NCBI RefSeq assembly: GCF_036287235.1
Contig: NZ_CP142850.1
Span: 274,001-338,000 of the forward strand
DNA length: 64,000 nt
Reading direction: 5' to 3'
Origin: Exiguobacterium sp. 9-2
Lineage (GTDB): Bacteria; Bacillota; Bacilli; Exiguobacteriales; Exiguobacteriaceae
Shown: one piece after another, positions 7,577-62,465 of the stretch
Layout: every line of letters starts with the position of its first letter
Position numbering within the stretch: the first letter of the stretch is position 1
Position numbers and translations under genes: made by a program
The notes under the pieces: generated by a model
Database searches by the model: none
Told to the model about the DNA's origin: nothing
What the model saw: only the letters and a program-made list of their open reading frames with translations

Positions 7577-7589
7577 AGGAGGAAGCGTC

Positions 7590-46230: not shown

Positions 46231-46278
46231 GGAGCCTGTTAACTACTAAAAATGAGTATTCGTATATGAAGTATTAAG

Positions 46279-46459: not shown

Positions 46460-46503
46460 ATGCTAAGTTCAACAGGTATTTCTATATCTGTTGAACTTAG
46501 CAT
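46460..46503 (+). terminator. long hairpin terminator
   Basis: Perfect 16-bp stem ATGCTAAGTTCAACAG/CTGTTGAACTTAGCAT, 12-nt loop, T-rich downstream on the plus strand. It separates the helicase operon from the leftward nuclease gene. Confidence 0.78.
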
Positions 46504-46552
46504 TTTATTATTTGCGTTAAAAAAATAATCAAAAAAACTATATAGGGAGAAC

Positions 46553-47389: not shown

Positions 47390-47416
47390 AGGTAATATCC
47401 TCCGCTTTTTCATTCG

Positions 47417-47422
47417 ATTATA
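47417..47422 (-). promoter_or_regulatory. -10 element of the nuclease gene
   Basis: Perfect TATAAT on the minus strand, 28 nt before the chosen TTG; the -35 is not clear. It shows that the gene is transcribed apart from the methyltransferase operon. Confidence 0.45.
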
Positions 47423-47494
47423 CAATAAATACCACAAAAAGATGTTGATACTTGATATGATCAAGTGAGATTGCATTATTTTTTGGAACACATA

Positions 47495-47520
47495 TTAAAA
47501 AGGGCTGAAAATCAGCCCCT
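47495..47520 (-). terminator. terminator of methyltransferase-AbiJ operon
   Basis: 7-bp stem GGGCTGA/TCAGCCC, followed by five T on the minus strand. Confidence 0.8.
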
Positions 47521-47528
47521 CTATTCTA

Positions 47529-48437
47529 CTATTTATTTGTTAAATGATTTTCATGTGTTTTGATTAAAAATGTTATATTCGTCCCTGCCAAATTAAGTGC
47601 ATATTGCGTCAAATGATCAGGTATAGCAATGACGCTCATACCCTGACCATGACTAGCTTCTTTATTCCTAACTGTAGGTAGTCCTTCTAATGTTGTTTTC
47701 AAGGAATTAAGTTGTGTTTGATAATAACTTGGTAAGAAGTCATTGGAAAACAATGCATTAATTAAAGCTGAAGCAGTCCCTTTTCCATAATCCCAATGAT
47801 TGAAGTCACAAATACTCTTCATCGTACTCTCAAATGCCTTTGCTACGGAGAGAATAGTCGCCTTGTTATCTCCATTTTTATAGTGGTTATACGCTTCTTG
47901 GTACTCGTCTAACGCTCCACTAAATAAAGGATTATGCATCAGGATCAAAGCAGGCTTTATAGCTTCGTTATAAAGTACTGTTGAGCTGATAGGAAGTATT
48001 CGATCTTTTACATAATCTAAGCCTATGCCGTTTTCTTTAAATCTTGTATTTAACTTATCAATTACATATTCTTTTGAAACTCTAAATGAATATTCACGCT
48101 TTTCGAGTTGAATATTTGTTGTAACTAGCAACTCAATGATATCTACTACCCAATCGTTTTCCTCACAATTTAAAATAAACTCTAGGCAACTTTCGACCGG
48201 ATCATACTCATATTCAGTACAACCTGGAGCGTTATCAAATGAGTAAAGAGCATGATCCGAACAGATTCTATCATGAACCCACTTAAATATACCGGTTGTA
48301 TATCTAGAATCCATCGGATTATCTGTAGAATATACTTCTTTAATTAAATGATATGCTTGAACTCTAAATCTCTCTGAAAGCCCTGAATAAGGAAGTATTT
48401 CGATTTCTCGGGGATTATTTCTCTGTGAAAAAAGCAT
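47529..48437 (-). CDS. AbiJ-like abortive infection protein (STM4504/CBY_0614 type)
   Basis: 302 residues. The N-terminus (LPYSGLSERFRVQAYHLIKE ... DWVVDIIELLV) resembles AbiJ N-terminal domain 4. The C-terminal half has EAIKPALILMHNPLFSGALD, AKAFESTMKSICD and PTVRNKEASHGQG, typical of the Abi_C/HEPN-like end of this family. Members are linked to phage abortive infection. It lies 25 nt downstream of the methyltransferase gene on the same strand and before a terminator, so it is co-transcribed with it. The ATG follows CTGGAGGTATATC. The mechanism is not known from sequence. Confidence 0.68.
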   Translation of the reverse strand: MLFSQRNNPREIEILPYSGLSERFRVQAYHLIKEVYSTDNPMDSRYTTGIFKWVHDRICSDHALYSFDNAPGCTEYEYDPVESCLEFILNCEENDWVVDIIELLVTTNIQLEKREYSFRVSKEYVIDKLNTRFKENGIGLDYVKDRILPISSTVLYNEAIKPALILMHNPLFSGALDEYQEAYNHYKNGDNKATILSVAKAFESTMKSICDFNHWDYGKGTASALINALFSNDFLPSYYQTQLNSLKTTLEGLPTVRNKEASHGQGMSVIAIPDHLTQYALNLAGTNITFLIKTHENHLTNK

Positions 48438-48462
48438 GATATACCTCCAGTAGTTTAAAGTA

Positions 48463-49599
48463 TTAAACTGTTTGAACCTTAGGTAATTGCTTTGTAGCCT
48501 TTAAATTTTGAAGTTGTAATTTAGCAGTAGGATCGATTGATTCATACTCGATTCCAGCAAAAGTTTTTAAGATCGCTTCAAAAACAATTTGAGCACCCGC
48601 AGGAGGAACTGCCATTCCAATTTGCTTTCGAACCTTTTCTTTACTACCTACAAAGTAAAAATCATCTGGGAACGTTTGAAGTCTTGCCCGCTCTCGGTTT
48701 GTGAGAGCTCGTGGTTCCTCCCAGTGATACATATGTGTACCACCACCACCGCTACCCGTCACTGTATATGCTGGACGATTTGGATCAAGACGTTTGTAAA
48801 TCGAGCTCAAACGTGCGCCTTTAACATTCAATCGGAGATGCTCTGGGATCCCTATAAACCACGCATTTTCACCTGCAGGAATGTGCGTTAGCATCTCTAT
48901 CACTTTAGCGTTGTGTCTAGTGAGTTCATTATTTAATGCATCTTCTGGAATCGGTGGATTCAAAATCGCTTCACTAGATGTTTTCATATTATCTAACGTA
49001 TTGAGTGGAGCAGGTACCTTAAAGACAATACCTTCTTCTGCTAGGTCATTTCGAATTCCAACGATAATGATACGATGACGCGCTTGAGGAACGCCGTAAA
49101 GTTCAAATTTATAAAGATGAGGCGTGAGTACATATCCGCATTCTTCTAACTCCGTTAAAATTTGAATAAACGCTTTTCCTTCATTAGCGCTTTGTAAGCC
49201 ACCAACATTCTCAGCTACAAAAAACTTTGGTTGGTATTCTTTCAAGACCTTTACACCATAAGAATATAGAGGACCAAACGTACCGTTCAGACCTTGCTTC
49301 TCACCGACTTGGCTGTAGTCATTACAAGGAAAACCGAATGCAAAACAATCAATCTCGCCAAGAATGGACTTATCACCAATCGGAAGTTGTTCTACTGGTC
49401 CGTAATGAACAGACGGATCTTCAATGTCTTCGCATATATTGTATCGATAGGTTTTACACGCTTGTTCGTCATAGTCATTTGACCATTCGTGAACAATGCG
49501 AAGTTCCTCTTCTGTTTCTGGGTGAATCACTCTAGCATTTTTAGCCCCTAAAGATAATCCACCAGGACCGTTAAATAATTCGCCTTTTTTAAATATCAT
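48463..49599 (-). CDS. DNA (cytosine-5) methyltransferase
   Basis: 378 residues. Motif I FNGPGGLSLG, motif IV GFPCNDYSQVG with the catalytic Cys (PCN instead of the common PCQ), motif VI AENVGG, motif VIII QARHRIIIVG, motif X GMAVPPAGAQIVFE. The ATG at 49597-49599 follows AGGAGTTTTCAT. It methylates cytosine at a specific site, protecting against the local restriction enzyme(s). It heads a leftward operon with the AbiJ-like gene. Confidence 0.93.
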   Translation of the reverse strand: MIFKKGELFNGPGGLSLGAKNARVIHPETEEELRIVHEWSNDYDEQACKTYRYNICEDIEDPSVHYGPVEQLPIGDKSILGEIDCFAFGFPCNDYSQVGEKQGLNGTFGPLYSYGVKVLKEYQPKFFVAENVGGLQSANEGKAFIQILTELEECGYVLTPHLYKFELYGVPQARHRIIIVGIRNDLAEEGIVFKVPAPLNTLDNMKTSSEAILNPPIPEDALNNELTRHNAKVIEMLTHIPAGENAWFIGIPEHLRLNVKGARLSSIYKRLDPNRPAYTVTGSGGGGTHMYHWEEPRALTNRERARLQTFPDDFYFVGSKEKVRKQIGMAVPPAGAQIVFEAILKTFAGIEYESIDPTAKLQLQNLKATKQLPKVQTV

Positions 49600-49647
49600 A
49601 TGAAAACTCCTAACTATAAAATCGAAAGTGTGTTCTGGCATACTCCT

Positions 49648-49676
49648 ATGCTAAACATTGTACACGTGTTATTCAA
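49648..49676 (-). promoter_or_regulatory. promoter candidate of the methyltransferase gene
   Basis: On the minus strand TTGAAT, 17-nt spacer, TAGCAT. A small repeat GCATA/TATGC overlaps the -10 and the spacer holds the palindrome ACACGTGT; either could bind a regulator. Confidence 0.42.
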
Positions 49677-49712
49677 AAAATGCAGCAACTAATACTCAAA
49701 AAAAACAAAGAG

Positions 49713-49758
49713 CTACGAGTAATAAAACATTCAATACTGAATGATTTATTACTCGTAG
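49713..49758. repeat. 46-bp near-perfect palindrome in the divergent R-M gap
   Basis: Outer arms CTACGAGTAATAAA/TTTATTACTCGTAG, an A-A mismatch, inner arms CATTCA/TGAATG, loop ATAC. Eight T follow shortly downstream on the minus strand, so it may stop antisense transcripts. It may also be an operator. Confidence 0.7.
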
Positions 49759-49799
49759 AGTATTGTAAATTGAATATAGAAATTAAAAGGAGGAAATAA

Positions 49800-50328
49800 A
49801 TGGGGGATGACAGTCTTAAGAATTTAAAAGGCTTAATGGAAATGTACGTGAGCTCCATGCTGTTAAATAGAGAATTTATAGATCCTTTACGATCCTACCT
49901 TCCCGACAAAACAAATTCGAAAGCGTTTAGCTGAAGAAACAGGTAAGGACATCAATTCAATTTATCGAGATGAACGGACTGGAACGATTTATAACGGAAT
50001 CATGCTCTTGCGGTATTGGAGAGCGTTTCTAATAATTCATGAGGAAGTAGCACAAGGGAAATCGGAACCGAAACGGATCGAATCCATTCTTCAAACATAT
50101 GAAAGTCATCTCAAGATGATTTCTGAAATCGAAGGAGAAGTGGATGTTCAAAGCGCAATCGAACGACATCTCCCGTGTATTTTAGATGTCATCCAACATT
50201 TTGAACGACATCCACTTCCTCAAAATCGAATAGTGAAAATCAAGTTATTAAAACAACTACAAATGAATGAACAAGTAATAGCGGGCTTGAAGCACCGTAG
50301 ACGAGAGAGGATGACAAGCATTGACTGA
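49800..50328 (+). pseudogene. frameshifted small gene preceding the AlwI-type nuclease
   Basis: ATG 49800 has a perfect AAAGGAGG and starts MGDDSLKNLKGLMEMYVSS, but this frame stops at 49932 after 44 residues. A second frame without its own start codon is open from 49882 and reads PTKQIRKRLAEETGKDINSI..., continuing as RYWRAFLIIHEEVA to 50328. It overlaps the endonuclease start by 8 nt. Joined by a +1 shift, for example at CTTCCCGAC (49898-49906), they give one ~175-residue helical protein. It is either a mutation or a programmed shift. No family recognised; a controller or accessory role is possible by position. Confidence 0.55.
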
Positions 50329-51919
50329 ACGAAAAATTTGGTTTATCACACGTCCGGAACGAGATCCGCGTTATCATGCGGAAGCAATGAGCGCTTTGCA
50401 AGAAGCAACGAACAACTTCACATTGAAATGGGAAGGAAACCGTGATCTGCATAAGCATTACGAGGCAGTACTTGCTTCACGCAAATTGAAACGAAACAAC
50501 ATTAGTAACGATGGTTCAGGAGGACGCACATGGTGCGCATTACTTAAGACATTTGCATACTGTTACATTGATAAAAATGGTGTTGTTAAACCGACTAAAG
50601 TAGGACAAGCCCTTGTAGATGGTATTAAAGAATACGAGAACGTGAAAAAGCAAATTCTTACCTTACAAATTCCGAATGCCTATTTTTTAGAGCGAGGTTT
50701 TCGACCTAAATTTGAAAGTAGCTTTCGGATCCGTCCTGCGCGCTTTTTAATCAAACTTGTACAACGAGAAGATCTTCAGTACTCCATTAGTAAAGAAGAG
50801 ATTACCTACTTTGTCTTAACAGCTCAAGATGATCGTGAAGTAGAAGAAATTGCGAAAAAAATTCTCCTGTATCGTCAGTCGTCACCAGACGAGCAAGAGC
50901 AAATGAAACAAGAAATTGCTGTTCAATACGATCATCGTGCGCGCAATGATAAGGCAGCACGTGACTACTACCAGGCACATTCTGATGTCGCACACACCTT
51001 TATGATGTTGTGTGAGTATACCGGATTAGTAGAGTATGTACGTGGAGATAGCATTTTAACGACACAGCCCGACCTAGTGGAAGAGGCATTACGTGTACTG
51101 AATGAATATGATCGTCGTTATCCGTTTAATACACGTTATCGTATTTCGATCGAACGAATGGCACAAAATAATGGATTAGATGTGGATAGCTACAAATCGA
51201 ACGATTATGGCGACGTGAAGCCAGCCAACAATCTAGGTAAACGACAAGGGAAGATCGATACGATTTTAGGAAAAATGCCAAACTGGACCATGCAATCCGA
51301 TGAAGAGTTGATTCAAGTGTTCACAGAGTCTTTTGGTCCTAGGGATGCAACTCAATTGGTCTCTATTCTACGAAAAGAGCAACCTGCGCTACTAAATGTT
51401 TCGGAGCAGTTTGTCGAGTCTTACTTGGGGCAAATGACACCCTTAGAATTTGAGAAACTAACAGGAGATATTTTCAAAGAGCTTGGATTTGATGTGGTGT
51501 ATCAACCGAAGGTGCAAGGAACAAGAACAGAGATTGAATTATTGGTGAAGTACGGAGACCATTTTGGAATCATTGATACAAAGTATTACGAGAGTGGATT
51601 CCCTTTATCACAAAACCTAGCGAACTACATGGGATCGGAATACATTCCTAACTACTTAATCTATGGTGATGCTCGGTTATCTTTCTTCGGTTACGTCACG
51701 TCAGCCGGCTACTCAGGAGAAAAAAAGCTACAATCCATTACGAAGTTAAGTGAAAAGTTAGTGGGAGAATCGATTGAAGGATTTATGTTAACGCGGGAAG
51801 TACTTCTTGGCTTCCTTGATTACTGTATCGAAAATGAAATTCCCAAAGAAGAACGGATTCAACTATTCATTGATCGCATTCAAAATAAAGCATTTAGTGA
51901 TCTGAAGCTTTATCTGTGA
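50321..51919 (+). CDS. AlwI-family type II restriction endonuclease
   Basis: 532 residues. The start KIWFITRPERDPRYHAEAM and later NISNDGSGGRTWCALLKTFA match AlwI-family enzymes. A C-terminal PD-(D/E)xK core is seen at TEIELLVKYG with IIDTKYYESGF (~405-430). AlwI itself reads an asymmetric site; the specificity here is unknown. The TTG start follows GAGAGGATGACAAGCA. It is the main gene of a rightward operon that continues with a membrane protein and an HNH nuclease. Confidence 0.85.
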   Translation: MTERKIWFITRPERDPRYHAEAMSALQEATNNFTLKWEGNRDLHKHYEAVLASRKLKRNNISNDGSGGRTWCALLKTFAYCYIDKNGVVKPTKVGQALVDGIKEYENVKKQILTLQIPNAYFLERGFRPKFESSFRIRPARFLIKLVQREDLQYSISKEEITYFVLTAQDDREVEEIAKKILLYRQSSPDEQEQMKQEIAVQYDHRARNDKAARDYYQAHSDVAHTFMMLCEYTGLVEYVRGDSILTTQPDLVEEALRVLNEYDRRYPFNTRYRISIERMAQNNGLDVDSYKSNDYGDVKPANNLGKRQGKIDTILGKMPNWTMQSDEELIQVFTESFGPRDATQLVSILRKEQPALLNVSEQFVESYLGQMTPLEFEKLTGDIFKELGFDVVYQPKVQGTRTEIELLVKYGDHFGIIDTKYYESGFPLSQNLANYMGSEYIPNYLIYGDARLSFFGYVTSAGYSGEKKLQSITKLSEKLVGESIEGFMLTREVLLGFLDYCIENEIPKEERIQLFIDRIQNKAFSDLKLYL

Positions 51920-51947
51920 ATCGAAATGAAGGGGGCTATCCATTTAT

Positions 51948-52634
51948 ATGATAGAAACAGTACTAAGTGAATTTCGAACTCTCTCTAAAGAGTATTCCAA
52001 AACACATTTTCGACCTACTCAAAGGACACTTTCATTTAAGGTTTATTGCTGCTCTATGCTTTCGTTCTTCGTTTTATTATTGATTACATCATGGGCACTT
52101 TTTCACGCATATAGCTTTAATACAATTGTAAGCTATTTTGTAGTTACCGTTATATTGTTGGGAGTTGCCTTGATATCAGAGAAATTTTCCAATAAACATC
52201 TTGCTACGTATCGTCTCAAAAAAAATCATTATATAAAGTTTCGCTTAAAAGAGTACTTAAGAAATGATCATCGTATAGTTCAAGCGGAGCAAATGAAGCA
52301 CTTGTCTGCTATGATTTCGAAAACAATTCAAATTCAAAAAAAGCACTACAAGTTTAATCCGAGCTATTTTTCGATAGTGTTGGCTATGATTTTTGGATTT
52401 TCAAAGTTTTGGGACAATGGAACTCTTTTAGTTGCTCTTGGTCTTTGTATTTTGTGCATGTTCCTTTTTGCTATTACACATTTCTTCCTTACTGCCCGAA
52501 CTAATTACCTCAATTTTAAAGTAGAAACATGTGAGGAAATGCTAAGCGTTATTGATGAAATTACACTCGAGATGCTAATTGATCATCCAAACGAAAAGTC
52601 AGTTGTCGCTAAGAAGAAAAGATTCCGCTTGTAG
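51948..52634 (+). CDS. four-helix membrane protein in restriction operon
   Basis: 228 residues: two pairs of hydrophobic helices (~32-75 and ~140-185), with a charged helical stretch between them and a soluble tail. No motif recognised. It starts 28 nt after the endonuclease stop and ends 49 nt before the HNH gene, all on one strand. Two-nuclease operons with a membrane protein suggest an anti-phage effector, but this is inference. Confidence 0.66.
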   Translation: MIETVLSEFRTLSKEYSKTHFRPTQRTLSFKVYCCSMLSFFVLLLITSWALFHAYSFNTIVSYFVVTVILLGVALISEKFSNKHLATYRLKKNHYIKFRLKEYLRNDHRIVQAEQMKHLSAMISKTIQIQKKHYKFNPSYFSIVLAMIFGFSKFWDNGTLLVALGLCILCMFLFAITHFFLTARTNYLNFKVETCEEMLSVIDEITLEMLIDHPNEKSVVAKKKRFRL

Positions 52635-52683
52635 TAGTATTATCGGTAACGAAAAAATCAGTAAAGTACTGGAGGCGCATGAG

Positions 52684-53493
52684 ATGTCCATTCCTTTTAT
52701 AAAAAATCAAATTTATCAACGAAAAGCGATTCATGATGAGTTTGGTGGTAGTCGTGAGCGTGGAATCAGTATGTCTGCTAAATCTCCGATGATTTTTATT
52801 TTTTCGAGCGAAGCAGGAGCAGATTTTGGTTACAAAAATGGATGGAATAATGAGCGTGATCTTTTTTACTATACGGGCGAAGGACGCAAGGGTGATCAGG
52901 AATTTAAGATGGGGAATAAGGCGTTACGCGATCATGTTGCAAATGGAAAGGACATCTATCTTTTTAAAAATGTTTCAAAGGGAATGTTTCGTTTCGAGGA
53001 ACAATTAACTTTAGTAGACTACACCCTTTCTCCGGTTTCGAATGAATCAGGAGAGGTACGAGATGTAATCATTTTTGCTTTTACCGTTTTTGAGAATGCA
53101 GTAAATACGAATAACATCGAGTTAGGAACGCCAGGTACGCTACAAGAATTACGAGAACTGGCATTAATGGATACCTCTAACGGGGATGAAACTATTCAAC
53201 AGAAGAAAGTGCACGTTCGGAAGCGTTCAGAAGCGATCAAAGCATATGCGCGTAAAAGAGCATCTGGTATGTGCGAACTGTGTGAGATGCCTGAGCCATT
53301 TCAAGCAAAATCAGGAAGTGCTTTGGATGTCCATCATTTGCTACGACTATCGGATGGAGGTCCAGATCATCCTGAACATGTTGCTGCGATATGTCCTAAT
53401 TGTCATGCTCATATTCATCGTGGTGTAGAAGGATATAACTTGAATCAAAAGCTGATTGCTAAGATAAGAGGAAAAGAAGAGACATATATATAA
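52684..53493 (+). CDS. HNH endonuclease, McrA-like
   Basis: 269 residues. The N-terminal ~130 (IYQRKAIHDEFGGSRERGIS ... YYTGEGRKGDQEF, GNKALRDHVANGKDIYLF) form a domain that in related proteins reads modified or special DNA. The C-terminal HNH nuclease has MCELCEMP, DVHHLLRLSDGG and CPNCHAHIH, including the zinc cysteines. ATG 52684 follows GGAGGCGCATGAG. It is the third gene of the AlwI-type operon. Dependence on modified DNA is possible but not shown. Confidence 0.78.
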   Translation: MSIPFIKNQIYQRKAIHDEFGGSRERGISMSAKSPMIFIFSSEAGADFGYKNGWNNERDLFYYTGEGRKGDQEFKMGNKALRDHVANGKDIYLFKNVSKGMFRFEEQLTLVDYTLSPVSNESGEVRDVIIFAFTVFENAVNTNNIELGTPGTLQELRELALMDTSNGDETIQQKKVHVRKRSEAIKAYARKRASGMCELCEMPEPFQAKSGSALDVHHLLRLSDGGPDHPEHVAAICPNCHAHIHRGVEGYNLNQKLIAKIRGKEETYI

Positions 53494-53510
53494 GGCTAAA
53501 AAAGTTATTA

Positions 53511-53562
53511 AAAGAGCAAAAAGATCTATCGCATATACAGACGACAGATCTTTTTGCTCTTT
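53511..53562. terminator. bidirectional terminator
   Basis: Perfect 17-bp stem AAAGAGCAAAAAGATCT/AGATCTTTTTGCTCTTT with an 18-nt loop. Confidence 0.85.
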
Positions 53563-53833
53563 AGTTCACTTCTTCATCTACACCAAATTTATCGGCAAAG
53601 CCATCAATAGGGCGAAATTGAAGGACAGTAGGGATATCACGAAAAAGACAATCGAATGTCCAATAATTCGAAACATCATCAAAGTCGACTTCTGTTAATC
53701 CAAATTGATCGGATAACTGTTCTACAACGTTCTCCGTCATTTCAAATACGGAAGTTCCAGTTGCCGTAAGACTACCTTCTTCAATAGTTTGTCCATTTTG
53801 CTTAATGAGATAGTCCATTTTTTGTGTACTCAA
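53561..53833 (-). CDS. hypothetical small acidic protein
   Basis: 90 residues, acidic, no membrane segment. TTG 53833 follows AAAGGAG at 9 nt. It contains SVFEMTENVVEQLSDQFGL. No family recognised. It is convergent with the HNH gene and shares its terminator. Confidence 0.55.
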   Translation of the reverse strand: MSTQKMDYLIKQNGQTIEEGSLTATGTSVFEMTENVVEQLSDQFGLTEVDFDDVSNYWTFDCLFRDIPTVLQFRPIDGFADKFGVDEEVN

Positions 53834-53919
53834 TATGATTTTCTCCTTTGAAATATAGGAAATGCACGCTTGATTAAAATTTTCTTCGCATTCGTGAGAT
53901 TCTTTAAATCAAAACGTAA

Positions 53920-54045
53920 TCAGGCATTACACCCAAGTCGTCCGCCATTGGACCCATCCATTTTCATACCTGCAAAAAAGCTAATCCCAAACGCCCAAAG
54001 TGTTTCTAAAGTGATTGATTTAAAATGTTTTAACAATGTTTGCAT
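53920..54045 (-). CDS. small hydrophobic peptide with C-terminal cysteine
   Basis: 41 residues, starting MQTLLKHFKSIT and ending DGSNGGRLGCNA. The ATG at 54043-54045 has TAGGGAGG at 8 nt. The same frame is open upstream to 54216 with a membrane-helix-like stretch (FAILLPAFILIVFLRYL), so it could be the end of a longer protein. The size and one Cys near the end recall secreted or cyclised signalling peptides, but no motif proves it. Confidence 0.4.
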   Translation of the reverse strand: MQTLLKHFKSITLETLWAFGISFFAGMKMDGSNGGRLGCNA

Positions 54046-54258
54046 ATGCATCGCCTCCCTAATTGTCTCTTCTTCTAGTTGAATACTCAAATAACGCAAA
54101 AAAACAATTAGAATAAACGCAGGTAATAGGATGGCAAAGTATCGAAACTTTGGATAATGCCTCATTACGTTTTGTATATCTATACTTATTATGTCACTTA
54201 ATTTAATCAGTAACAACTTTTTGTGGTTCTAGTCAAATGATCATCAATCTATACATTA

Positions 54259-54289
54259 CTTATTTATTTACTTATTTATTTATTTATTT
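54259..54289. repeat. TTTA tetranucleotide repeat
   Basis: About seven imperfect units of TTTA (one interrupted by C). The stop codon of a small leftward reading frame lies in it. Confidence 0.75.
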
Positions 54290-54455
54290 CTTCAGATACT
54301 TGGATAGATAAGATTTGTTTGAACGGAACGATTTTGACGTCAAGATTTCGTTTAACGAGGTGGACTTTCTCTTGCACATAGTCGAGCTTCTCGACGCAAA
54401 AATCGAAAGAAAATTTATTGCGGTTATCGTGAGCATGAGGATAAGATTCGCTCAT
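54276..54455 (-). CDS. possible 59-residue protein or gene remnant
   Basis: It reads MSESYPHAHDNRNKFSFDF, then VEKLDYVQEKVHLVKRNLD and ends EEINK. Codon use resembles the better-expressed genes of the window. There is only a poor ribosome binding site (AGGTGA touching the ATG) and an in-frame TGA just before, so it may be a fragment. Confidence 0.3.
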   Translation of the reverse strand: MSESYPHAHDNRNKFSFDFCVEKLDYVQEKVHLVKRNLDVKIVPFKQILSIQVSEEINK

Positions 54456-54748
54456 TCACCTGTACACATCGATCACTTCATTATCTAACTATGCAATCTT
54501 AGTCGTTATTTCACGTATATTTCTGCAATTGATATTTCTCTGTGCTTAGTATTACGAAGCTGACATTTTTAATTTCTTGAATAGTCACCTGATCATAATA
54601 GATATCAAGATAAAAAATAATCTCTTTATTATGTAGAAATATAGAAATCATTTTAAACAGTTATTATTAGTTATATTATAGTAATTGTTTTATTTACATT
54701 GATTTTTAATGTGTAAAAAACATTTATTGGTTATAAGTATCTGTAATA
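54456..54748. other. AT-rich non-coding gap
   Basis: No supported gene or known RNA seen; AT-rich DNA before the promoter of the toxin-like gene. Confidence 0.5.
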
Positions 54749-54778
54749 TTGAAAATATTTTTCGTTTATTGGTATAAT
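54749..54778 (+). promoter_or_regulatory. strong promoter of the toxin-like gene
   Basis: -35 TTGAAA, 18-nt spacer, perfect -10 TATAAT. Transcription should start near 54785, giving a ~78-nt leader. Confidence 0.72.
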
Positions 54779-54819
54779 AAACAAGAATGCAGATGGTATT
54801 CCTCTGATAGGGGAGGACG

Positions 54820-54864
54820 ATTGGTATGCCTCGCTCGCAATAGCGAAAGGAGGATGATACCAAT
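54820..54864 (+). promoter_or_regulatory. leader hairpin sequestering the start codon
   Basis: ATTGGTAT (54820-54827) pairs with ATACCAAT (54857-54864), which includes the first two bases of the ATG; AAAGGAGG lies in the loop. The left arm is also complementary, with its flank, to the 3' end of the transcript (55187-55204). Confidence 0.6.
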
Positions 54865-55075
54865 GAAGTGGTTTTTGTTAATTTTGGTTGTAGAAATGAC
54901 GTTCACATTAGGTGGATACTTGATTTCAGACTTAGCAGGGTTATGCGTAATTTGCTCTTCCTCGATGTCGTTGTTTAGTTTCATCGTTAACGTTAACAGC
55001 AAAAAAAAGACACAAAAAAACACCCCAGACCTTGGCGAGTCTGAAGGTGGCCCTGATGAATCCGATAAAAAATAA
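54863..55075 (+). CDS. small membrane protein, candidate type I toxin
   Basis: 70 residues: a hydrophobic N-terminal part with one or two helices (KWFLLILVVEMTFTLGGYLI and LAGLCVICSSSMSLFSFIV) and a polar, Lys/Glu/Asp-rich tail. The ATG follows AAAGGAGGATGATACCA. The mRNA has a structured leader hiding the start codon, a long ~170-nt 3' part and 5'-3' complementarity, as in hok- and TxpA-type toxins. It has no known homologue that I recognise, so toxicity is inferred from layout only. Confidence 0.55.
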   Translation: MKWFLLILVVEMTFTLGGYLISDLAGLCVICSSSMSLFSFIVNVNSKKKTQKNTPDLGESEGGPDESDKK

Positions 55076-55104
55076 TTGGCGTTAAAAAATCGGATACTCT
55101 GAAT

Positions 55105-55127
55105 CCCTAGAAGTTGCTTATCTAGGG
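55105..55127 (+). repeat. hairpin in the 3' untranslated part
   Basis: CCCTAGA-N9-TCTAGGG, 7-bp arms, between the toxin-like gene and its terminator. Confidence 0.55.
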
Positions 55128-55186
55128 GGGAACAGATTAGACGGCTATACTCGAAAGAGCAAAGCATGTCATGAGGTTCGCCCCTT

Positions 55187-55204
55187 GTACGAGGCATCGC
55201 AATC
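55187..55204 (+). promoter_or_regulatory. 3' element complementary to the toxin-like mRNA leader
   Basis: ACGAGGCAT (55189-55197) and CAATC (55200-55204) can pair with GATTG and ATGCCTCG at 54819-54833; the 8-bp core ATGCCTCG is perfect. Pairing would compete with the start-codon hairpin. Confidence 0.5.
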
Positions 55205-55209
55205 AATTA

Positions 55210-55246
55210 GGCTATTTCGTATTGGCGTACGAAATAGTCTTTTTTT
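55210..55246 (+). terminator. terminator of the toxin-like transcript
   Basis: 11-bp stem GCTATTTCGTA/TACGAAATAGT with a 6-nt loop and seven T. Confidence 0.85.
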
Positions 55247-55705
55247 GTGACTCCACTAAGTAAGTAAATCCTGTTAGAAAACAAACTGTATTGATTGCTT
55301 ATTTTCATTATAGATTACTTAAATAGAGTATTCAACAATCAAGTTTGTGTAAGTTTGTGGTTACGCATCTTTGATTATTATAAAATTCTTTACCTTTTTT
55401 AACTCGATTTAAAACTTTTTCTTTATTATTACTTTGTAAAATCATTGAGCTCTAATTATTTATCAGGAAATAACATATAAACATAGAGGTGATTTACTTA
55501 TTGTTTACTTCTTATAATCTAACTTCAAAAAATTAATGAAAAAGATCTTTTCTCTTTTATATATACATAAAAGGTTAATTCTCTTTCTTCCTGAAACGAC
55601 TCTACTATCTTAAATAATGCCGTATTTATATCATACAGCGTTATTTGTAAAGACTCTCCATTCCGTTTTATATTGTGATTAACAAGACGACTAGGAGTGA
55701 AGTAT
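55247..55705. other. AT-rich gap without supported gene
   Basis: It has a direct repeat AAGTTTGTG (55341 and 55351) and a leftward 69-codon frame from 55734 that lacks a ribosome binding site. Nothing else seen. Confidence 0.5.
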
Positions 55706-55900
55706 GTGAGGATACTAAAATTGTTTGAAGTCATGGATCATGATAAAGGAAAGCAAGTAACAGGTAAGGTTACATTGATCGATGCTCAGCTTCGTTTCGT
55801 GCGAGAAGTAGATGGTTCAATCGAGCACGTGACATGGTTCATCGACGTTGATCGATTGACAGACTTCATGCAGGAACATTTTACTAAGCAGACCCACTGA
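55706..55900 (+). CDS. hypothetical small protein
   Basis: 64 residues starting RILKLFEVMDHDKGKQVTG and containing VTWFIDVDRLTDFMQEHF. GTG 55706 has CTAGGAGTG at 8 nt; GTG 55697 is too close. A terminator overlaps its stop. It looks like a small beta-alpha domain; no family recognised. Confidence 0.55.
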   Translation: MRILKLFEVMDHDKGKQVTGKVTLIDAQLRFVREVDGSIEHVTWFIDVDRLTDFMQEHFTKQTH

Positions 55901-55913
55901 GGTCTGTTTTTTT
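55889..55913 (+). terminator. terminator overlapping the stop codon
   Basis: 6-bp stem CAGACC/GGTCTG and seven T. Confidence 0.75.
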
Positions 55914-56040
55914 CATGCATCAAAGTACGTAATCAATAACCTAGAAAGATAAATAGATGGGTGGGAAAAATGTCCAACTTTATCCTGATATTCGCTGTAT
56001 ACTGAAGATAACTTACGAATCAGGAATGGAGAGATGGATG

Positions 56041-56886
56041 ATGAAACGAAAATGGATGGGTTCTAGCTTAGCGTTCGCAAGTGTCGGATTACTCGTGGGA
56101 CCACTTCAAGGAGTTGAAGCGGCGACACCGAAAATCAAGGTCCACTATATTGATGTCGGTCAAGGTGATGCGATCTACATCAAGATGCCAAGCGGTGAAG
56201 ATATCGTCATCGATGGTGGTAACAAGGGGAAGGGCGATGAACTCGTTGCCTATCTGAAGAAACAGAAGGTCGGCGACATCGAGGTGTTAATCTCGACGCA
56301 TCCGGATGCCGATCACATCGGGGGACTTGATGAAGTCCTCGACTCGTTCAAGGTCAAAAGCGTCTATGCACCTAAGGTCAAGCACACTACGCAAGCCTAC
56401 AAAGACTTCTTGTTGGCGGTCAAGCGCGAGAAGCTGACGATCAAGACAGCGAAGGCGGGCGTCTCATTCCCGGTTAAAGGCGTGAAGGCGCAGTTCGTCG
56501 GACCGGTCAAAGACTATGCGAAGAGTGATCTTAACAACTGGAGCGCGGTCCTACACGTTGCCTATAAGAAGAACACGTTCTTGTTCACAGGAGATGCAGA
56601 ATTAAAATCGGAACAAGACATGATTGCGAAGAAGAAGACGTTACGTGCGGACGTCCTCAAGGTTGGGCATCATGGGGCGAAGACGTCGACGAGTGCGACG
56701 TTCCTCAAGTATGTTAAACCAAAGTATGCCGTCATCAGTGTCGGCAAGAACGCGTATGGACACCCGACGAAGGAAGTCGTGACGAACCTAAAGCGGGCAA
56801 AGGCGACGATGTTACGTACAGACAAGAGTGGCACGATCGTCTTCGAAGGGAACGGATCGTCCTACACGATCAAGAAATCAAAATGA
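56041..56886 (+). CDS. secreted MBL-fold hydrolase (ComEC C-terminal-like)
   Basis: 281 residues. A signal peptide (VGLLVGPLQGVEA) is followed by a metallo-beta-lactamase fold: VHYIDVGQGDAIYI, the metal motif HPDADHIGG, FTGDAE, and VGHHGAKTS. Alone-standing proteins like this resemble the nuclease-like C-terminal domain of ComEC. ATG 56041 is preferred to 56038 for spacing from GGAG. It is coupled to a DUF3006 gene (ATGA), a common pairing. Function unknown; extracellular nuclease or phosphodiesterase activity is plausible. Confidence 0.87.
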   Translation: MKRKWMGSSLAFASVGLLVGPLQGVEAATPKIKVHYIDVGQGDAIYIKMPSGEDIVIDGGNKGKGDELVAYLKKQKVGDIEVLISTHPDADHIGGLDEVLDSFKVKSVYAPKVKHTTQAYKDFLLAVKREKLTIKTAKAGVSFPVKGVKAQFVGPVKDYAKSDLNNWSAVLHVAYKKNTFLFTGDAELKSEQDMIAKKKTLRADVLKVGHHGAKTSTSATFLKYVKPKYAVISVGKNAYGHPTKEVVTNLKRAKATMLRTDKSGTIVFEGNGSSYTIKKSK

Positions 56887-57107
56887 CGAAACGAAAAGGA
56901 ATCATCGACCGGATTGAGGGGAAGTGGGTCGTTGTCGAGTTCGACGATGGGATGCGCGACATCCTGATTTCCCACTTCCCGATGATGGTGGAGTCCGGCG
57001 ATGTCATCTGGATGGATGCGTACGGTCATATCGAGAAGGATGACCAAGAACGGAAGCGACTCTCGAACGAAATTGATGAGTTGATGGAAAAGCTATGGGA
57101 GGATTAA
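56883..57107 (+). CDS. DUF3006 protein
   Basis: 74 residues: KRKGIIDRIEGKWVVVEFDD, a small beta-barrel DUF3006, followed by a charged helix ending MEKLWED. It overlaps the MBL gene by 4 nt; this pair recurs in Firmicutes. Function unknown. Confidence 0.87.
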   Translation: MTKRKGIIDRIEGKWVVVEFDDGMRDILISHFPMMVESGDVIWMDAYGHIEKDDQERKRLSNEIDELMEKLWED

Positions 57108-57144
57108 GATAAACGATTAAAACATTTTGTGAAGGTTGTGCGAT

Positions 57145-60100
57145 ATGAAAATTTTTAATAGTTTTTTAAAACAAATAACTATTGTAATCATAAACAAACT
57201 AATTAACAGTTTGTATTTTGTGAAACAAAAAATTTTAAAAGGTAATAATAAAATTGAATTTCTTTTTGAAGACTTGACTCCTAGTACTGATATCGATGAA
57301 GACGAAAAATATTCAAATGCGATATCTTGGGGATTAGAAAATGATAATGTTAAAAATATAGCATTAACTGGACCTTATGGATCAGGTAAAAGTAGTTTAA
57401 TAAGCACATTTGAGAGCAGAAACAATAAACTTTATAAGTTTTTGAACATATCAATTGCGACATTTCAGGAAAATAAAGATATAGAAAACGAAAATGACTT
57501 AGAAAAAAGTATACTTCAACAAATGATTTATCAAGTAAAAGATCAAACAATTCCGTTTTCCCGTTTTTCAAGAATTAAGTATATAAAAAATAAGGATATT
57601 ATTTTCTTCATTTTGTTATTAATAGGATTTCTTTATGCAGGAATTGAATTATTTTATCCAATATATTTTAAAGAAACATTATTTAAAACACCATTTGTTC
57701 AAAATATTTCTAGCGGTGATAATTTCAAAATTATATTGTCAATTTTCTTATTCTTAGTAGTACTTTTTGCTCCAATTCTAATTTTTAAAAAAATGTATAA
57801 GTTTTTTCATGGTACTTTTAAATTTAGTAAATTGACTATTGCGAGCACTACAATAGAAAAAGGTAATAATAATGATCCACAGTCTATATTTGATAAATAT
57901 TTAGACGAAATTTTTTACTTTTTTGAAGCAACTAAATATGATGTTGTAGTGTTTGAGGATTTAGATAGATTTAACAACTTAGAAATTTTTGAGAGGCTTC
58001 GAGAACTAAACTCTCTTTTAAATAACTCTAAGCAAATTGATCGTAAAATTGTATTTATCTATGCCTTGAAAGATGAAATCTTTGGTGTCAACCAGCTTAA
58101 TCAAACTAATGACTCAATCGATTGGAGTAAAAATAGAACAAAATTTTTCGACTTTATAATTCCTGTTATTCCAATTATTAATTCTTCAAATTCAATTGAA
58201 AAGCTAATAATGAAAATTGATAGATTAGATTACAATCAAAAAATTGATAAGAGATTTTTAGGCGATGTAACTATATTTATAGATGATATGAGAATTTTAA
58301 AAAATATATTCAATGAATTTATAATTTATAAAGAAAAATTAGGAGTGATTGATTTAGATTTAAACAATCTTATGGCAATTATTATTTATAAAAATATTTA
58401 TCCTTTTGATTTTTCTGAATTACAATATGGAAAAGGCTTAGTGCATGACGTTTTAAAAAATAAAAAGAACGTTATAGATCATAATACGAATATATTTGAA
58501 AAGAAAATAAAAATGTTAAAAGAGGAACTAGAACGAGTTAGAAAAGAAAATTTAAACTCAATAGAGGAACTTCAAACTGTTTATTTAGAGGCGTTAGGAA
58601 TGTATAATCCCGTAATATACAATCGTAACAGTTCACGTATTACAATAGATTCTATCGAATTTAAAAATGACTTTTCCATTGATAAAAATTCATTTTTCAA
58701 TACTTTAGAAAACGCTAAAAAGGTGGGTTATTATTTAGATAAAAATAATAGGCATAAAAATGAAAGTTTTGAAGGGAAAAATGAAATAGAAACTGTTTTT
58801 GGTGAAAAACCAAATTACTTTGATCGAAAAAAAAGTATAGAAATTATCGAAAAAAACAATAGTAATAAACTGAAATTAGAAATTGATGAACTGCATCAAC
58901 TGAAGTTAGATATTACTTCAAAATCACTGAAAGAATTGATTGAAATTAGTGATCATTCATTAGTATTTCCTGAAGAAATAAGAGACAAAAAATTGCTAGT
59001 TTACTTGTTGCGTAATGGTTATATTGACGAAATGTATAATCACTATATTACCTATTTTTATCCCGGAAGTTTAACTGAAGAAGATCTCAAATTTGTATTT
59101 AGCATAAAAAATCACGAATCTTTAGATATGGATTACAAATTAGCAAATGTAAAAAAAGTTATTGAGCGATTACATGGAAATGAATTCAAACAAAAAGAAA
59201 TCTTAAACTTTCAATTAGTTGATTATTTAATTGAAAACTTAAATACAGAAAATTATAAAATCTACTTTTTAAACATTATAGAGCTACTTAGTAATAAGGT
59301 TGATGATCCTCTAGTATTTATAGACGCATACAGACAAAACGGTAAAAACAAAGGAATATTCTTTAAAATAATATGTAGCAAGTGGAATGGTTTTTGGAGT
59401 TTTATTAAAAATAATTCAAGTATTTCTAACGAAGAAAAAAACCATTATACTTCAAATATTTTTGAATTTGCAGACATAGAAGATATAAATGATATGAATA
59501 GTGACGGACAACTAACAGATTTTGTATCGGATCATCAAAATTTTATAGAGATTTCACCAGCTGACATAAATAAATCTTTAAAAATTTTATTGAGTTTAAA
59601 CATTAAATTTTATTCATTAGAAGCTATTAAAAATAATGAAGTTTTAATGGATTTTGTAGTTAAGAATAACTTATATAAAATTAATTTAGCCAACTTAAAG
59701 TTAATTTTAAAAATTACTAATTGTTCATTTTCTTATTCTAATATAAAGAAAAAAGCGTCGGAAAATATTTTAAATTATTTGGATGAAAATATAGTTTTGC
59801 TTTTGAACGAAACTGTGTTAAAAACGTCAACAGCAGAAGAAGATGAAAATACTCTTTTAGAACTTTTAAATCATGAAGAAGTTCCAATGGATTTAAAAAA
59901 AGCTCTTATCCCTATTCAAAATTTACTAATAACGGATATAACAACTGTGGATTCAGACAACTGGCATTTACTCTTAGGATTAAAAAAAATTGAGCCTTCA
60001 TGGTTAAATGTGATAAATTACTTTAACTATAAAAACGATTTAGATGAGTTGTTAATAGACTATCTTGAACAGAACTATGTAGCAAAAAAATTATCCGGGA

Positions 60101-60852
60101 CATATATTGAAGATTTTAGTGATTTTAATGAAGTCGTCTTAGACGAATTTCTCAATAAAATAATACATTCTAAAGAATTAAATGATAGAGTCATTGGTAT
60201 ATTATCACCAAGCTTTAATTCACCTTCTAAAATTAAATTAAAAGATTTAAATACAAAGAGGATCAGAACTTTAATTAATCATAAATTATTAAATTTGGAT
60301 ATGAATAATTATCTATTTATAAAAGATAGCTTTCCTAAATTATTACCTTTATTTTTCAAAAAAAATATAAAGAAATTTTTCAATGAAATAAACAATTATG
60401 ATTTAAATCTCGATGATATAAATTTAGTCGTACAATCAAATGAATTTTCTAAAAAAGACAAAGTTAAATTTATTAATAGTTTTTCGTTTGAAACTTTTTT
60501 TGAAATAGACTCTTCAATGGCTTTTAAAATTTCAGAACTTATTCAACGTTCTGGAGTAAATATTTCTATAGACTTACTAAATTTATTGTTGACAAAAGAT
60601 ATCAATAATGAACATAAAGTTATTCTTATTACAAAGTATATAAAAATAAGTAATTATAATGAGATTACTTCTATGATTGAAAAATTAGACCCTCCATCCT
60701 CGAAAATAGCTGTAAGTGGAAAGAGACCCTTGATTGAAAATAACAAAGTAAATAGAAATTTTGTAAAGGAATTAGAAAAAATAAATTACATTTCTTCTAG
60801 TAAAGAATTTAGAGAAAACATTAGAATTATGACAAAAAAATCTAAGAAATAA
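57145..60852 (+). CDS. YobI-like P-loop NTPase, candidate defence protein
   Basis: 1235 residues. Walker A GPYGSGKSS (~81), a membrane-helix pair inserted before Walker B (~155-230: IIFFILLLIGFLYAGIELF; IILSIFLFLVVLFAPILIF), Walker B VVVFEDLDRF (~270), then a ~850-residue helical, repeat-like C-terminal part. This matches YobI-like/KAP-like STAND-type NTPases, often tied to prophages and defence. ATG 57145 follows GAAGG at 9 nt. Codons are strikingly AT-rich (AAT, ATA, TTA), unlike the MBL genes on both sides, which shows recent acquisition. Confidence 0.75.
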   Translation: MKIFNSFLKQITIVIINKLINSLYFVKQKILKGNNKIEFLFEDLTPSTDIDEDEKYSNAISWGLENDNVKNIALTGPYGSGKSSLISTFESRNNKLYKFLNISIATFQENKDIENENDLEKSILQQMIYQVKDQTIPFSRFSRIKYIKNKDIIFFILLLIGFLYAGIELFYPIYFKETLFKTPFVQNISSGDNFKIILSIFLFLVVLFAPILIFKKMYKFFHGTFKFSKLTIASTTIEKGNNNDPQSIFDKYLDEIFYFFEATKYDVVVFEDLDRFNNLEIFERLRELNSLLNNSKQIDRKIVFIYALKDEIFGVNQLNQTNDSIDWSKNRTKFFDFIIPVIPIINSSNSIEKLIMKIDRLDYNQKIDKRFLGDVTIFIDDMRILKNIFNEFIIYKEKLGVIDLDLNNLMAIIIYKNIYPFDFSELQYGKGLVHDVLKNKKNVIDHNTNIFEKKIKMLKEELERVRKENLNSIEELQTVYLEALGMYNPVIYNRNSSRITIDSIEFKNDFSIDKNSFFNTLENAKKVGYYLDKNNRHKNESFEGKNEIETVFGEKPNYFDRKKSIEIIEKNNSNKLKLEIDELHQLKLDITSKSLKELIEISDHSLVFPEEIRDKKLLVYLLRNGYIDEMYNHYITYFYPGSLTEEDLKFVFSIKNHESLDMDYKLANVKKVIERLHGNEFKQKEILNFQLVDYLIENLNTENYKIYFLNIIELLSNKVDDPLVFIDAYRQNGKNKGIFFKIICSKWNGFWSFIKNNSSISNEEKNHYTSNIFEFADIEDINDMNSDGQLTDFVSDHQNFIEISPADINKSLKILLSLNIKFYSLEAIKNNEVLMDFVVKNNLYKINLANLKLILKITNCSFSYSNIKKKASENILNYLDENIVLLLNETVLKTSTAEEDENTLLELLNHEEVPMDLKKALIPIQNLLITDITTVDSDNWHLLLGLKKIEPSWLNVINYFNYKNDLDELLIDYLEQNYVAKKLSGTYIEDFSDFNEVVLDEFLNKIIHSKELNDRVIGILSPSFNSPSKIKLKDLNTKRIRTLINHKLLNLDMNNYLFIKDSFPKLLPLFFKKNIKKFFNEINNYDLNLDDINLVVQSNEFSKKDKVKFINSFSFETFFEIDSSMAFKISELIQRSGVNISIDLLNLLLTKDINNEHKVILITKYIKISNYNEITSMIEKLDPPSSKIAVSGKRPLIENNKVNRNFVKELEKINYISSSKEFRENIRIMTKKSKK

Positions 60853-60888
60853 AAAATGGATGAGCGTCCTCTTTCAAAATAGATGATT

Positions 60889-60916
60889 AAAGTAAAAAAA
60901 CTACTTTTATTTTTTG
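60889..60916 (+). terminator. weak terminator after the YobI-like gene
   Basis: 6-bp stem AAAGTA/TACTTT followed by a T-rich run. Confidence 0.5.
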
Positions 60917-61277
60917 ACTTGATGAAATCTTCGACTCGTTTAAGGTCAAGAGCGTCCATGTATTAAAGATAAAGCACACGACGCAAGCCTACAAAAGACT
61001 TTTTGTTAGGGAACAACGCGAGAAGCGTCCGATCAAAAACGTGGAGGCGGAGTTTTTTTTGACTGGTCAAAGACTATACGAAGAGTGATTTGAATAATTG
61101 GAATACGGTCTTACAAGTCGTCTATAAGAAGAATAGGTTACTCTTCACGTGGGACGCGGAACTGAAGTCGAAACAGCACATGATTGTGAAGAAGAAGACG
61201 CTTCGTGCGAAAAGATAAGCGTGGCGCGAGTGTCTTCGAAGGGAACAGGTTGTCCTACATGTTCAAGAAGTTGAAAT
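60916..61277 (+). pseudogene. decayed copy of the MBL-fold gene
   Basis: Clearly homologous to 56326-56886: it begins GACTTGATGAAATCTTCGAC like the intact gene and can be followed through the AAGAAGAAGACG segment. It lacks the first ~285 nt and about 180 nt holding the HHGA region, and has several frameshifts. No product expected. Confidence 0.85.
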
Positions 61278-61500
61278 CACAAAACGAAAAGGAATCATCG
61301 ACCGGGTTGAGGGGGAGCGGGTCATCGTTGAGTTCGATGATGGGATGCACCACATTCTGATTTTCCGCTTCCCGATGGTGGTAGAGTCAGGTGATATCAT
61401 CTGGATTGATTAAATTGTACGAATCAAAAAAGATGATCGAGAACGGTAACAATTATCAAACAAAGTCAACGAGTTAATGGAAGTTTTATGGGAAGACTAA
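61276..61500 (+). pseudogene. decayed copy of the DUF3006 gene
   Basis: Full-length 225-nt homologue of 56883-57107; the start ATG is ATC, and stops appear in frame (GATTGATTAA). It follows the MBL remnant in the same order as the intact pair. Confidence 0.85.
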
Positions 61501-61613
61501 ATCAACTATACTGTCTGAGAAAAATTTATAGTTCTAAAAATAATTTCTTTTCAAATAAGATACTTTCAAAGCAATAACAAACCACCAGTATTTAGCTGAA
61601 AGGAATAGGAAAT

Positions 61614-62465
61614 ATGAAGAATTTAATTTTCTTAGAAGGACTCCCAGGCTCGGGCAAAACAACAACAGCCGAAGCATTAACTCGTCTATTGCAAGAGCAA
61701 CAAACCGACACGCGTCTTCATATCGAAGGAGATCTCAACCATCCCGCAGATTATGAAAGTGTTGCTTACTTAACGATGGATGAATGGATAAACTTTCAAA
61801 AGAAGTATGACTTACTTGATGTTCTACGATTTGCTGAAGTGTTCAATGATTTCGTGCTGGTATCGTATCGTCAGTGGCAATCAAAACAGAATGTTCCTGA
61901 AGCGGCACTTGCATTTCTCCAAGCACGAGATATCTATGAACTACCATTTGAGTTACATCAATCATTGATCTTTAAGAAGTGGGAAGCGTTCGTCGCTCAA
62001 GTTTTAACGACGGATACAACATATGTTTTTGAGTGTTGCTTCTTGCAAAACCCATTGACGATTGGGCTCATCAAATACGATTTACCGGAAGAGACGCTAC
62101 GAGCGTATATTAATCGCTTAGTGACAATCATCGCACCGTTACAACCCGTTCTCGTCTATGTTGATCAACCGGATGTAGAACGAAGCTTCCGCAAAGCGTT
62201 ACAAGAGCGTCCTACAGAATGGGCTGACGGATTCGTATCCTATTACACCGAGCAAGCATATGGTGTAAATCGCTCGTTATCAGGAGTAGAAGGGACGATT
62301 GCAATTTTACAGGCACGACAAATGTTGGAGCGTCAATTGTTAAAAACGCTTCCTTTTAGAGTAGAGGTATTCGGAAATGAAGATTTTTCAATAGATGTGA
62401 GACAAAAATGGTTAAAGCAGTTGATTCAGTCAACTGTGCGTTCGACTTCTTTAAGCGAGAGCTAA
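61614..62465 (+). CDS. P-loop ATPase, thymidylate-kinase-like
   Basis: 283 residues starting KNLIFLEGLPGSGKTTTAEA with Walker A GLPGSGKTT. The region YVFECCFLQNPLTIGLIKYD may hold the second phosphate-binding part. The family is often found as a stand-alone gene in Bacillales; the substrate is unknown. The ATG follows AAAGGAATAGGAAAT. Composition is near the window average, so the accessory block ends before it. Confidence 0.75.
   Translation: MKNLIFLEGLPGSGKTTTAEALTRLLQEQQTDTRLHIEGDLNHPADYESVAYLTMDEWINFQKKYDLLDVLRFAEVFNDFVLVSYRQWQSKQNVPEAALAFLQARDIYELPFELHQSLIFKKWEAFVAQVLTTDTTYVFECCFLQNPLTIGLIKYDLPEETLRAYINRLVTIIAPLQPVLVYVDQPDVERSFRKALQERPTEWADGFVSYYTEQAYGVNRSLSGVEGTIAILQARQMLERQLLKTLPFRVEVFGNEDFSIDVRQKWLKQLIQSTVRSTSLSES

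Follow-up and report, generated by a model that had tools for sequence, protein, structure and literature searches.

How did one AT-rich gene come to stand between two copies of the same gene pair, one intact and one decayed? This question is raised by a stretch of 64,000 nucleotides from Exiguobacterium sp. 9-2 (hereafter the window), which corresponds to G000:C1:274001-338000 in a host assembly consisting of a single contig of 3.06 Mb. Here, an intact pair of genes encoding a metallo-β-lactamase (MBL)-fold protein and a DUF3006 protein (56041-57107) is followed by the gene for a YobI/KAP NTPase (57145-60852) and then by a decayed second pair (~60909-61501). The analysis presented below indicates that this pair probably marks a spot in Exiguobacterium, mostly on plasmids, at which phage-defence and other genes are swapped, and that the window captures one such swap. 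The features concerned are as follows (window positions).

56041..56886, + strand: intact MBL-fold gene, ComEC-type, 281 amino acids (aa); Lactamase_B, 4.6e-23 (Pfam)
56883..57107, + strand: intact DUF3006 gene, 74 aa, overlapping the MBL stop; PF11213, 2.6e-15
57145..60852, + strand: cargo gene for a YobI/KAP-type P-loop NTPase, Tmn-like, 1235 aa; PF20693 and PADLOC Tmn
60909..61501 (approximate), + strand: fossil MBL-DUF3006 pair, 5'-truncated, with an internal deletion and stops; repeats and translated matches

An earlier note on this DNA had described the AT-rich NTPase gene as bracketed by an intact and a decayed pair, and this arrangement was confirmed by direct repeats, by Pfam matches and by the score of the fossil DUF3006 match. 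Direct repeats D1-D3 (79-85% identity) and D6 (76%) show that the pair recurs, 4393-4592 bp downstream of the first copy. All 74 residues of DUF3006 were matched at 61276-61497 with 67.6% identity, and the score of this match was 242, as compared with a maximum of 34 across 60 shuffles of the DNA slot behind the pair. Residues 96-152 and 121-203 of the MBL protein recur in two different frames, with stops; the fossil lacks ~284 nt of the MBL 5' end and has a large internal deletion as well. G+C contents of 0.51, 0.24 and 0.42 were obtained for the intact pair, the NTPase gene and the fossil, respectively. The longest exact match between the two copies of the pair is 24 bp, and excision between the repeats, which the earlier note had suggested looking for, therefore appears unlikely between the copies in their present state.

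The pair is mainly plasmid-borne in Exiguobacterium. A copy with at least 95% protein identity was found in 11 of the 19 genomes of the genus, giving 13 copies inclusive of that in the window. Eleven of these lie on contigs of 35-237 kb, and the remaining two (the window and G014:C1) are on chromosome-sized contigs. Plasmid contigs with the pair include G001:C2 (NZ_CP082334.1), G003:C2 (NZ_CP081879.1) and G014:C2 (NZ_CP053558.1), together with plasmid NZ_CP040675.1 of the sister genus (G030:C3); the other contigs bearing the pair were assigned as plasmids on the basis of size and ArdC/relaxase-type neighbours. When PLSDB was searched, the MBL protein was matched in 193 of 72,556 records, most commonly in Priestia (34), Geobacillus (17), Exiguobacterium (11) and Deinococcus (11). 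The closest named plasmid copies of the window pair are from Exiguobacterium. In Priestia and Geobacillus plasmids (seven records read among the 193 matching) the pair is present without the tight slot and ArdC-like gene described next.

Behind the pair lies a slot that is closed by an ArdC-like gene in 25 of 27 plasmid-type loci, in the opposite direction and after 0.5-5.7 kb; the gene is missing from two loci, G001:C2b and G026, of which G026 abuts a contig end. Beyond the ArdC-like gene, a MobP2 relaxase was present in all seven named Exiguobacterium plasmids read. The ArdC-like protein was not found in the genome of the window itself, in a search that had no positive control; tblastn with the same protein did find the gene in the 25 plasmid-type loci. 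A total of 28 slots was scanned. This number includes one plasmid counted twice (G030 is E. mexicanum punnamed1) and the near-twins G002:C3 and SI17 p1; G026, with its slot cut off by the contig end, was excluded, and the slots of G001:C2b and G014:C1, which have no ArdC boundary, were ended at 3500 nt. The cargo directly observed in these slots is varied, as listed below by locus.

G002:C3, and SI17 p1 by annotation: SIR2_2
G015: Cap15 and a CBASS cyclase
G014:C1 and G018 (66% identical): RelA_SpoT
pE73: GIY-YIG PDC-S14
G028: HEPN_Swt1
G023: HD-CE
G001:C2a, and G003 and G007 (genes 96% identical): weak PDC-M14B match
pMC1, pCXA, E. mexicanum (= G030), G027 and G036: macrolide phosphotransferase
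PFWT01, by annotation: VanZ and an IS30 transposase
G034: NIF3 and peptidase S51
G016: 191-aa protein with a sub-threshold match, and a Mutator-type transposase
SI17 p2, G001:C2b, G019 and G031: proteins without a Pfam or PADLOC match

In addition, the slot begins with a gene for a DUF5067 lipoprotein (92-97% identical) in 7 of 12 same-genus genome loci; at three of these (G010, G013 and G014:C2), the other cargo is scant or of unknown kind. Within the slot, SIR2, the CBASS cyclase, RelA/SpoT PDC-S33 and GIY-YIG PDC-S14 each gave a PADLOC match at 1e-15 or better. With the window NTPase counted, 5 of ~19 kinds of cargo match PADLOC at this level; another three kinds are defence candidates on weaker grounds, and the remaining kinds do not qualify as defence genes in these tests. 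Thus, the plasmid slot is a single site occupied by unrelated defence systems across strains. Among the cargo without a Pfam or PADLOC match, the genes for proteins of 391 and 390 aa in L047 (G001:C2b; 6017-8415) and of 404 aa in L101 (8322-9536) are candidates for defence genes. A Tn7-like TnsE gene was also observed near the pair and SIR2 module on E. acetylicum SI17 plasmid p1 (L100, 896-2422).

Three of the 28 slots hold an extra copy of DUF3006, forming what is referred to here as a stack: those of the window, of G018:C2 and of G034:C55, the last of these in the sister genus. Reading downstream in G018, the pair is followed by a RelA/SpoT gene, then by a fossil pair, a DUF5067 gene, a gene for 232 aa and finally a further scrap of DUF3006. 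The front cargo is the 66% relative of the RelA/SpoT gene behind the pair of G014:C1, and the genes behind the fossil are 92% and 94% identical to those of G014:C2, where a single pair is followed by DUF5067 and 230-aa genes. As judged from these matches, G018 looks like an arrangement of the G014:C1 type placed ahead of one of the G014:C2 type. In G034, the pair is followed by the NIF3 gene, a DUF3006 fossil and the peptidase S51 gene.

The relationship between each fossil and its intact neighbour was assessed by allele comparison, identity ranking and phylogeny. At 13 sites with a base private to the intact copy of the window, the fossil has the common base at nine, a third base at three and the private base at one. 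Across 172 segregating sites, the window fossil agreed best with G002:C3 (0.767), and its neighbour ranked 11th of 14 (0.663). Likewise, the G018 fossil agreed best with G014:C2 and G013:C2 (0.719), with its own neighbour tied 11th-12th of 14 (0.605); of seven bases private to that neighbour, the fossil shares one, and it has the common base at five of these sites and a third base at the other. The G034 fossil is 87-90% identical to G030, G027, G036 and pMC1 and 79% identical to its own DUF3006 gene, which ranked seventh of 12 alleles. By allele or identity ranking, all three fossils are therefore nearer to the pair of another genome than to their neighbour. The allele test did not include SI17 p1, which is near-identical to G002:C3, or the five sister-lineage rows; the identity profile described below was prepared without SI17 p1 and without the plasmid of E. 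mexicanum. The second, 111-nt fossil scrap of G018 was omitted from the tree and allele tests, and the first G018 fossil was trimmed to 579 nt. The maximum-likelihood tree of 22 pair sequences is star-like, with the window fossil on a long branch and of odd base composition. In the identity profile, the G034 pair is mosaic, its MBL 5' part being 98-100% identical to G036 and its DUF3006 end 80%, which is as expected for the trace of a crossover inside the pair.

These comparisons bear on the two histories that the earlier note had offered. Duplication of the pair followed by insertion of the NTPase gene is disfavoured, since the window fossil is closer to the pairs of other genomes, an outcome that the earlier note had itself listed as refuting, and the same holds for G018 and G034; on the alleles, a recent local duplication in particular is disfavoured for the window. 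Entry by recombination on the repeat, with subsequent decay of the far copy, fits the data with one correction: the arriving unit was probably pair plus cargo rather than the NTPase gene alone, given that the pair occurs mainly on plasmids and is followed there by a slot with variable cargo. Two intact pairs without the NTPase, named in the earlier note as evidence that would count against its proposal, do literally occur in G001 and G014, but these are dispersed rather than tandem. In G001, the two pairs are 53 kb apart on one contig, and in G014 one is on the chromosome-sized contig and the other on a plasmid.

The cargo gene in the window has an intact reading frame, with an ATG at 57145, a stop at 60852 and no internal stop. 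It starts 38 nt past the DUF3006 stop in the same orientation. The full YobI-ATPase domain (PF20693) was matched at 7.3e-116 (388 bits, cut-off 27), and the PADLOC Tmn profile PDLC02220 was matched at 6.4e-74, with residues 34-1025 aligned to profile positions 19-1055 of 1273. A Walker A motif at residue 76 is followed by two transmembrane-like segments (147-165 and 188-206, by simple hydropathy rather than a topology program), a pattern common to the NTPase and five relatives including Tmn of Escherichia coli. The latter is described as a KAP-family NTPase with two transmembrane domains and a precise mechanism yet to be explored (PMC11846954). The window protein resembles the Tmn described there in being a KAP-type P-loop NTPase with two membrane segments, encoded by a single gene and annotated as defence. 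The order of Walker A and membrane segments is the same in both proteins, which share 22.6% identity over 1145 aligned residues. The NTPase is a Tmn-like membrane KAP ATPase and, by analogy with this family, most likely detects infection by phage and halts it.

Full-length relatives at 46-49% identity are present in Bacillus sp. RO1, Exiguobacterium s48 and a Sutcliffiella plasmid, and a further one (38%) is present in a Spirochaetes metagenome-assembled genome. The NTPase is carried by 1 of the 19 genus genomes, being absent from the other 18, and by 3 of 38 family genomes. It had no match in phage records and no PDB match by sequence; in a literature search on 'YobI', the titles among the matches listed were unrelated to this protein. 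A distant (32%) YobI/Tmn-like gene was noted in the sister genus, on an 816-kb contig (L147; G034:C21:470000-487000).

The module in the window is situated at the right end of a variable region of the chromosome.

46200..61620, no strand assigned: variable chromosomal defence hotspot, with conserved flanks and unrelated DNA between
52579..53493, + strand: HNH gene (HNH, 2.3e-6) in a stretch that partly matches DNA upstream of a plasmid pair

The flanks of the hotspot are conserved at 86-92% in G011 (same species), G016 and G001, and the DNA between them is unrelated; for G003 and G002, similarity on the left breaks off earlier, at 43.5 kb. Window positions 43.1-46.1 kb and 61.6-63.7 kb match G011 at 91-92%, with 12.3 kb between that do not match the window, and G016 has 13.2 kb at this site. 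PADLOC matches at 1e-10 or better comprised DndFGH (G011), SspBCDH (G003), Orf5/HEC-06 (G001) and a type IIG restriction-modification system (G014). Nine of ten hotspot proteins tested had a PADLOC match, the exception being the single G016 protein, and two SspBCDH proteins of G003 that were checked are 96% identical in G002. Thus, the chromosomal site also holds unrelated defence systems at one conserved position across strains. The pair was not matched in any of the eight chromosomal stretches L092-L099. The pair and RelA/SpoT module of G014 sits at the same hotspot site; its placement relies on flank matches that are short or diverged, with 76% identity over ~120 nt on the left (C1:569836) and 70% on the right (C1:581873). 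The other island genes of the window (46553-53493) encode an AbiJ_NTD4/DUF7014 protein, a type II cytosine methyltransferase, a type II restriction enzyme, the HNH protein and two proteins of 312 and 228 aa without matches. Window positions 52691-52826 and 53137-53555, in and around the HNH gene, match G001:C2:107869-108431 at 75-77%, in DNA that lies ~3.6 kb upstream of the pair in G001:C2b; a plasmid origin may therefore extend beyond the pair.

It is likely that modules consisting of pair and cargo entered these sites by recombination on the pair, pushing the older pair downstream. The pair would be the anchor of a cargo slot, normally plasmid-borne, between DUF3006 and the ArdC-like gene, and cargo behind DUF3006 in the same orientation would probably be read on the transcript of the pair. 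For the window, a shared transcript is suggested by the 38-nt spacing between the DUF3006 stop and the NTPase start and by the terminator scan, which gave no terminator-like site between them. A new module would enter via homologous recombination, either on the pair or on the DNA upstream of it, and the downstream junction, being less exact, would fall in or near the resident pair. Shortened and redundant, the resident pair would then decay, and the incoming or hybrid pair would stay under strong purifying selection. In the window, the arrival would have taken place in the chromosomal defence hotspot. The slot, the variety of its cargo, the three stacks and the unlikeness of the fossils to their neighbours were observed directly; both the route and the direction of entry are what we infer. 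Several observations weigh against such entry. Stacking is the exception, 25 of the 28 slots being without it; no donor replicon carrying the pair together with the window NTPase turned up; and the NTPase relatives L005, L006, L007 and L107 had no MBL or DUF3006 match in the flanks that were searched. The tree does not reject sisterhood of fossil and neighbour (p-AU of 0.386 for the window and 0.146 for G018), and the mosaic signal in the identity profile is weak in both. The G018 fossil still carries a short piece of upstream DNA, and a plain 5' truncation does not therefore account for its junction. Finally, an old local duplication in which the intact copy was later overwritten by recombination would give an identical allele pattern.

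The last of these points is the core of one alternative, in which an old tandem duplication in place was followed by insertion of the NTPase gene, decay of the far copy and overwriting of the near copy by inter-strain recombination. The unrejected sisterhood suits it, and pairs can be mosaic, most clearly in G034, so that overwriting is feasible. We consider it improbable nevertheless: the fossil shares just 1 of 13 private bases of its neighbour, the same pattern is seen in three stacks, and behind the G018 fossil lie genes that stand downstream of the pair in a different arrangement. Integration of the Campbell type, whereby a circle bearing pair and NTPase recombined with a resident pair to give two full pairs bracketing the cargo, the second of which decayed, is a variant of the module route, with which its odds overlap. 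A pair-cargo-pair order is the expected product of this event, and the upstream sequence kept by the G018 fossil is in keeping with it, but two of the three fossils (window and G034) are without the 5' part and the window copies now share no exact match above 24 bp, although decay would explain the latter; nor was a circular form seen, though no search was aimed at one. As the specific route, it is possible but on the unlikely side. The bracket might also be an accident at the edge of a defence island, in which two unrelated plasmid-type insertions flank a separately acquired NTPase gene; the chromosomal site is indeed a hotspot of high turnover, and Tmn-like genes elsewhere occur without the pair. 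Against this, the NTPase follows the DUF3006 stop as closely, and in the same orientation, as plasmid cargo does, and the same type of bracket exists in two other replicons, making such an accident quite improbable.

Also in favour of the module route, the window MBL gene gave dN/dS values of 0.016-0.034 against 14 same-genus copies; the intact gene is thus maintained by strong selection. Its product has a signal peptide, judged by eye. It matches ComEC_Rec2 at 2.2e-47, yet under the cut-off of that profile, and fails the ComEC/Rec2 equivalog TIGR00361 (161.6 bits, cut-off 190), covering only positions 434-663 of 663. The top PDB match is 9ic4 ('Competence protein', 2.6e-41). On these profile matches, it is a free-standing MBL protein with a relationship to the C-terminal part of ComEC. 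It is a very improbable idea that MBL-DUF3006 is more than a passive anchor, namely an exported ComEC-type nuclease unit that aids DNA uptake or processing at the cell surface, serving as the plasmid's own aid to exchange of the gene behind the pair, with the fossils as its record. A chromosomal MBL paralogue with 52% identity was observed at G000:C1:1560498-1561223, in a 344-aa frame, and paralogues at 50-54% are listed in each of the 19 genus genomes searched.

Two further features lie immediately upstream of the pair.

55697..55900, + strand: small open reading frame (ORF), 67 aa, GTG start, in the conserved upstream unit; tblastn
55886..55909, + strand: terminator-like hairpin 3' of the small ORF; weak, with two sites in the stretch versus 2.4 expected by chance

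By tblastn, the small ORF is present in all 14 same-genus loci (12 genome loci, SI17 p1 and SI17 p2), five of which have only the C-terminal two thirds or less; it was not found in five sister-lineage plasmids, nor in five Priestia/Geobacillus loci. A promoter scan of the stretch was at chance level (29 found, 29.8 expected). Neither an Rfam scan of window positions 46000-62000 nor a tRNA scan of the entire window gave a match, and there is thus no tRNA-type integration site in the window. To the right of the hotspot, a perfect 20-nt inverted repeat with a 4-nt loop (63182-63225), of which the 44 nt match reversed at the corresponding place in G016 and G011, is probably a bidirectional terminator. 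Matches to G011 and G016 also drew attention to an internal repeat of ~540 nt (70%) at 28282-29367, within the gene for a predicted 456-aa surface protein.

In integron cassette arrays, the newest cargo adjoins a fixed anchor and older material is farther off. The slot is similar in that the newest cargo would lie beside a fixed anchor; unlike an integron, the repeated unit is the anchor gene pair itself, and the annotation of the named plasmids, read over a few kb on either side of the pair, shows no integrase. The nearest published logic is the sequential displacement in type VI secretion system (T6SS) clusters of Vibrio. For the effector-immunity arrays of Vibrio cholerae, Kirchberger et al. 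(2017; PMC5361080) use the same argument against duplication and discuss both homologous recombination and homology-facilitated illegitimate recombination. As described there, new modules are in front with old genes as a trail downstream, and copies within a strain are not mutual nearest relatives, both of which resemble the present case. By contrast with those arrays, the anchor here is a ComEC-type MBL-DUF3006 pair, mostly plasmid-borne; the cargo consists of defence and other genes rather than effectors; and the remnant is a decaying anchor copy, in two of three cases with older cargo. The core defense hotspots of Pseudomonas aeruginosa likewise have conserved flanking genes between which defence systems replace each other, but they are bounded by core genes, whereas the present slot is mainly on plasmids and the pair seems to move with its cargo (PMC10250203). 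A literature search, with most subscription journals outside its coverage, returned no mention of 'DUF3006', of Exiguobacterium with MobP2, or of an Exiguobacterium plasmid with 'defense island'.

If this account is correct, the DUF3006 stop codon behind this MBL gene would be a simple marker for the slot, the occupants of which would include several known and candidate anti-phage genes. The unassigned cargo, namely the proteins of 404 aa, of 391 and 390 aa, of 191 aa and of 291-318 aa (weak PDC-M14B), would then provide new candidates for defence genes. The three stacks would be a record of gene exchange among plasmids and of passage into a chromosomal island.

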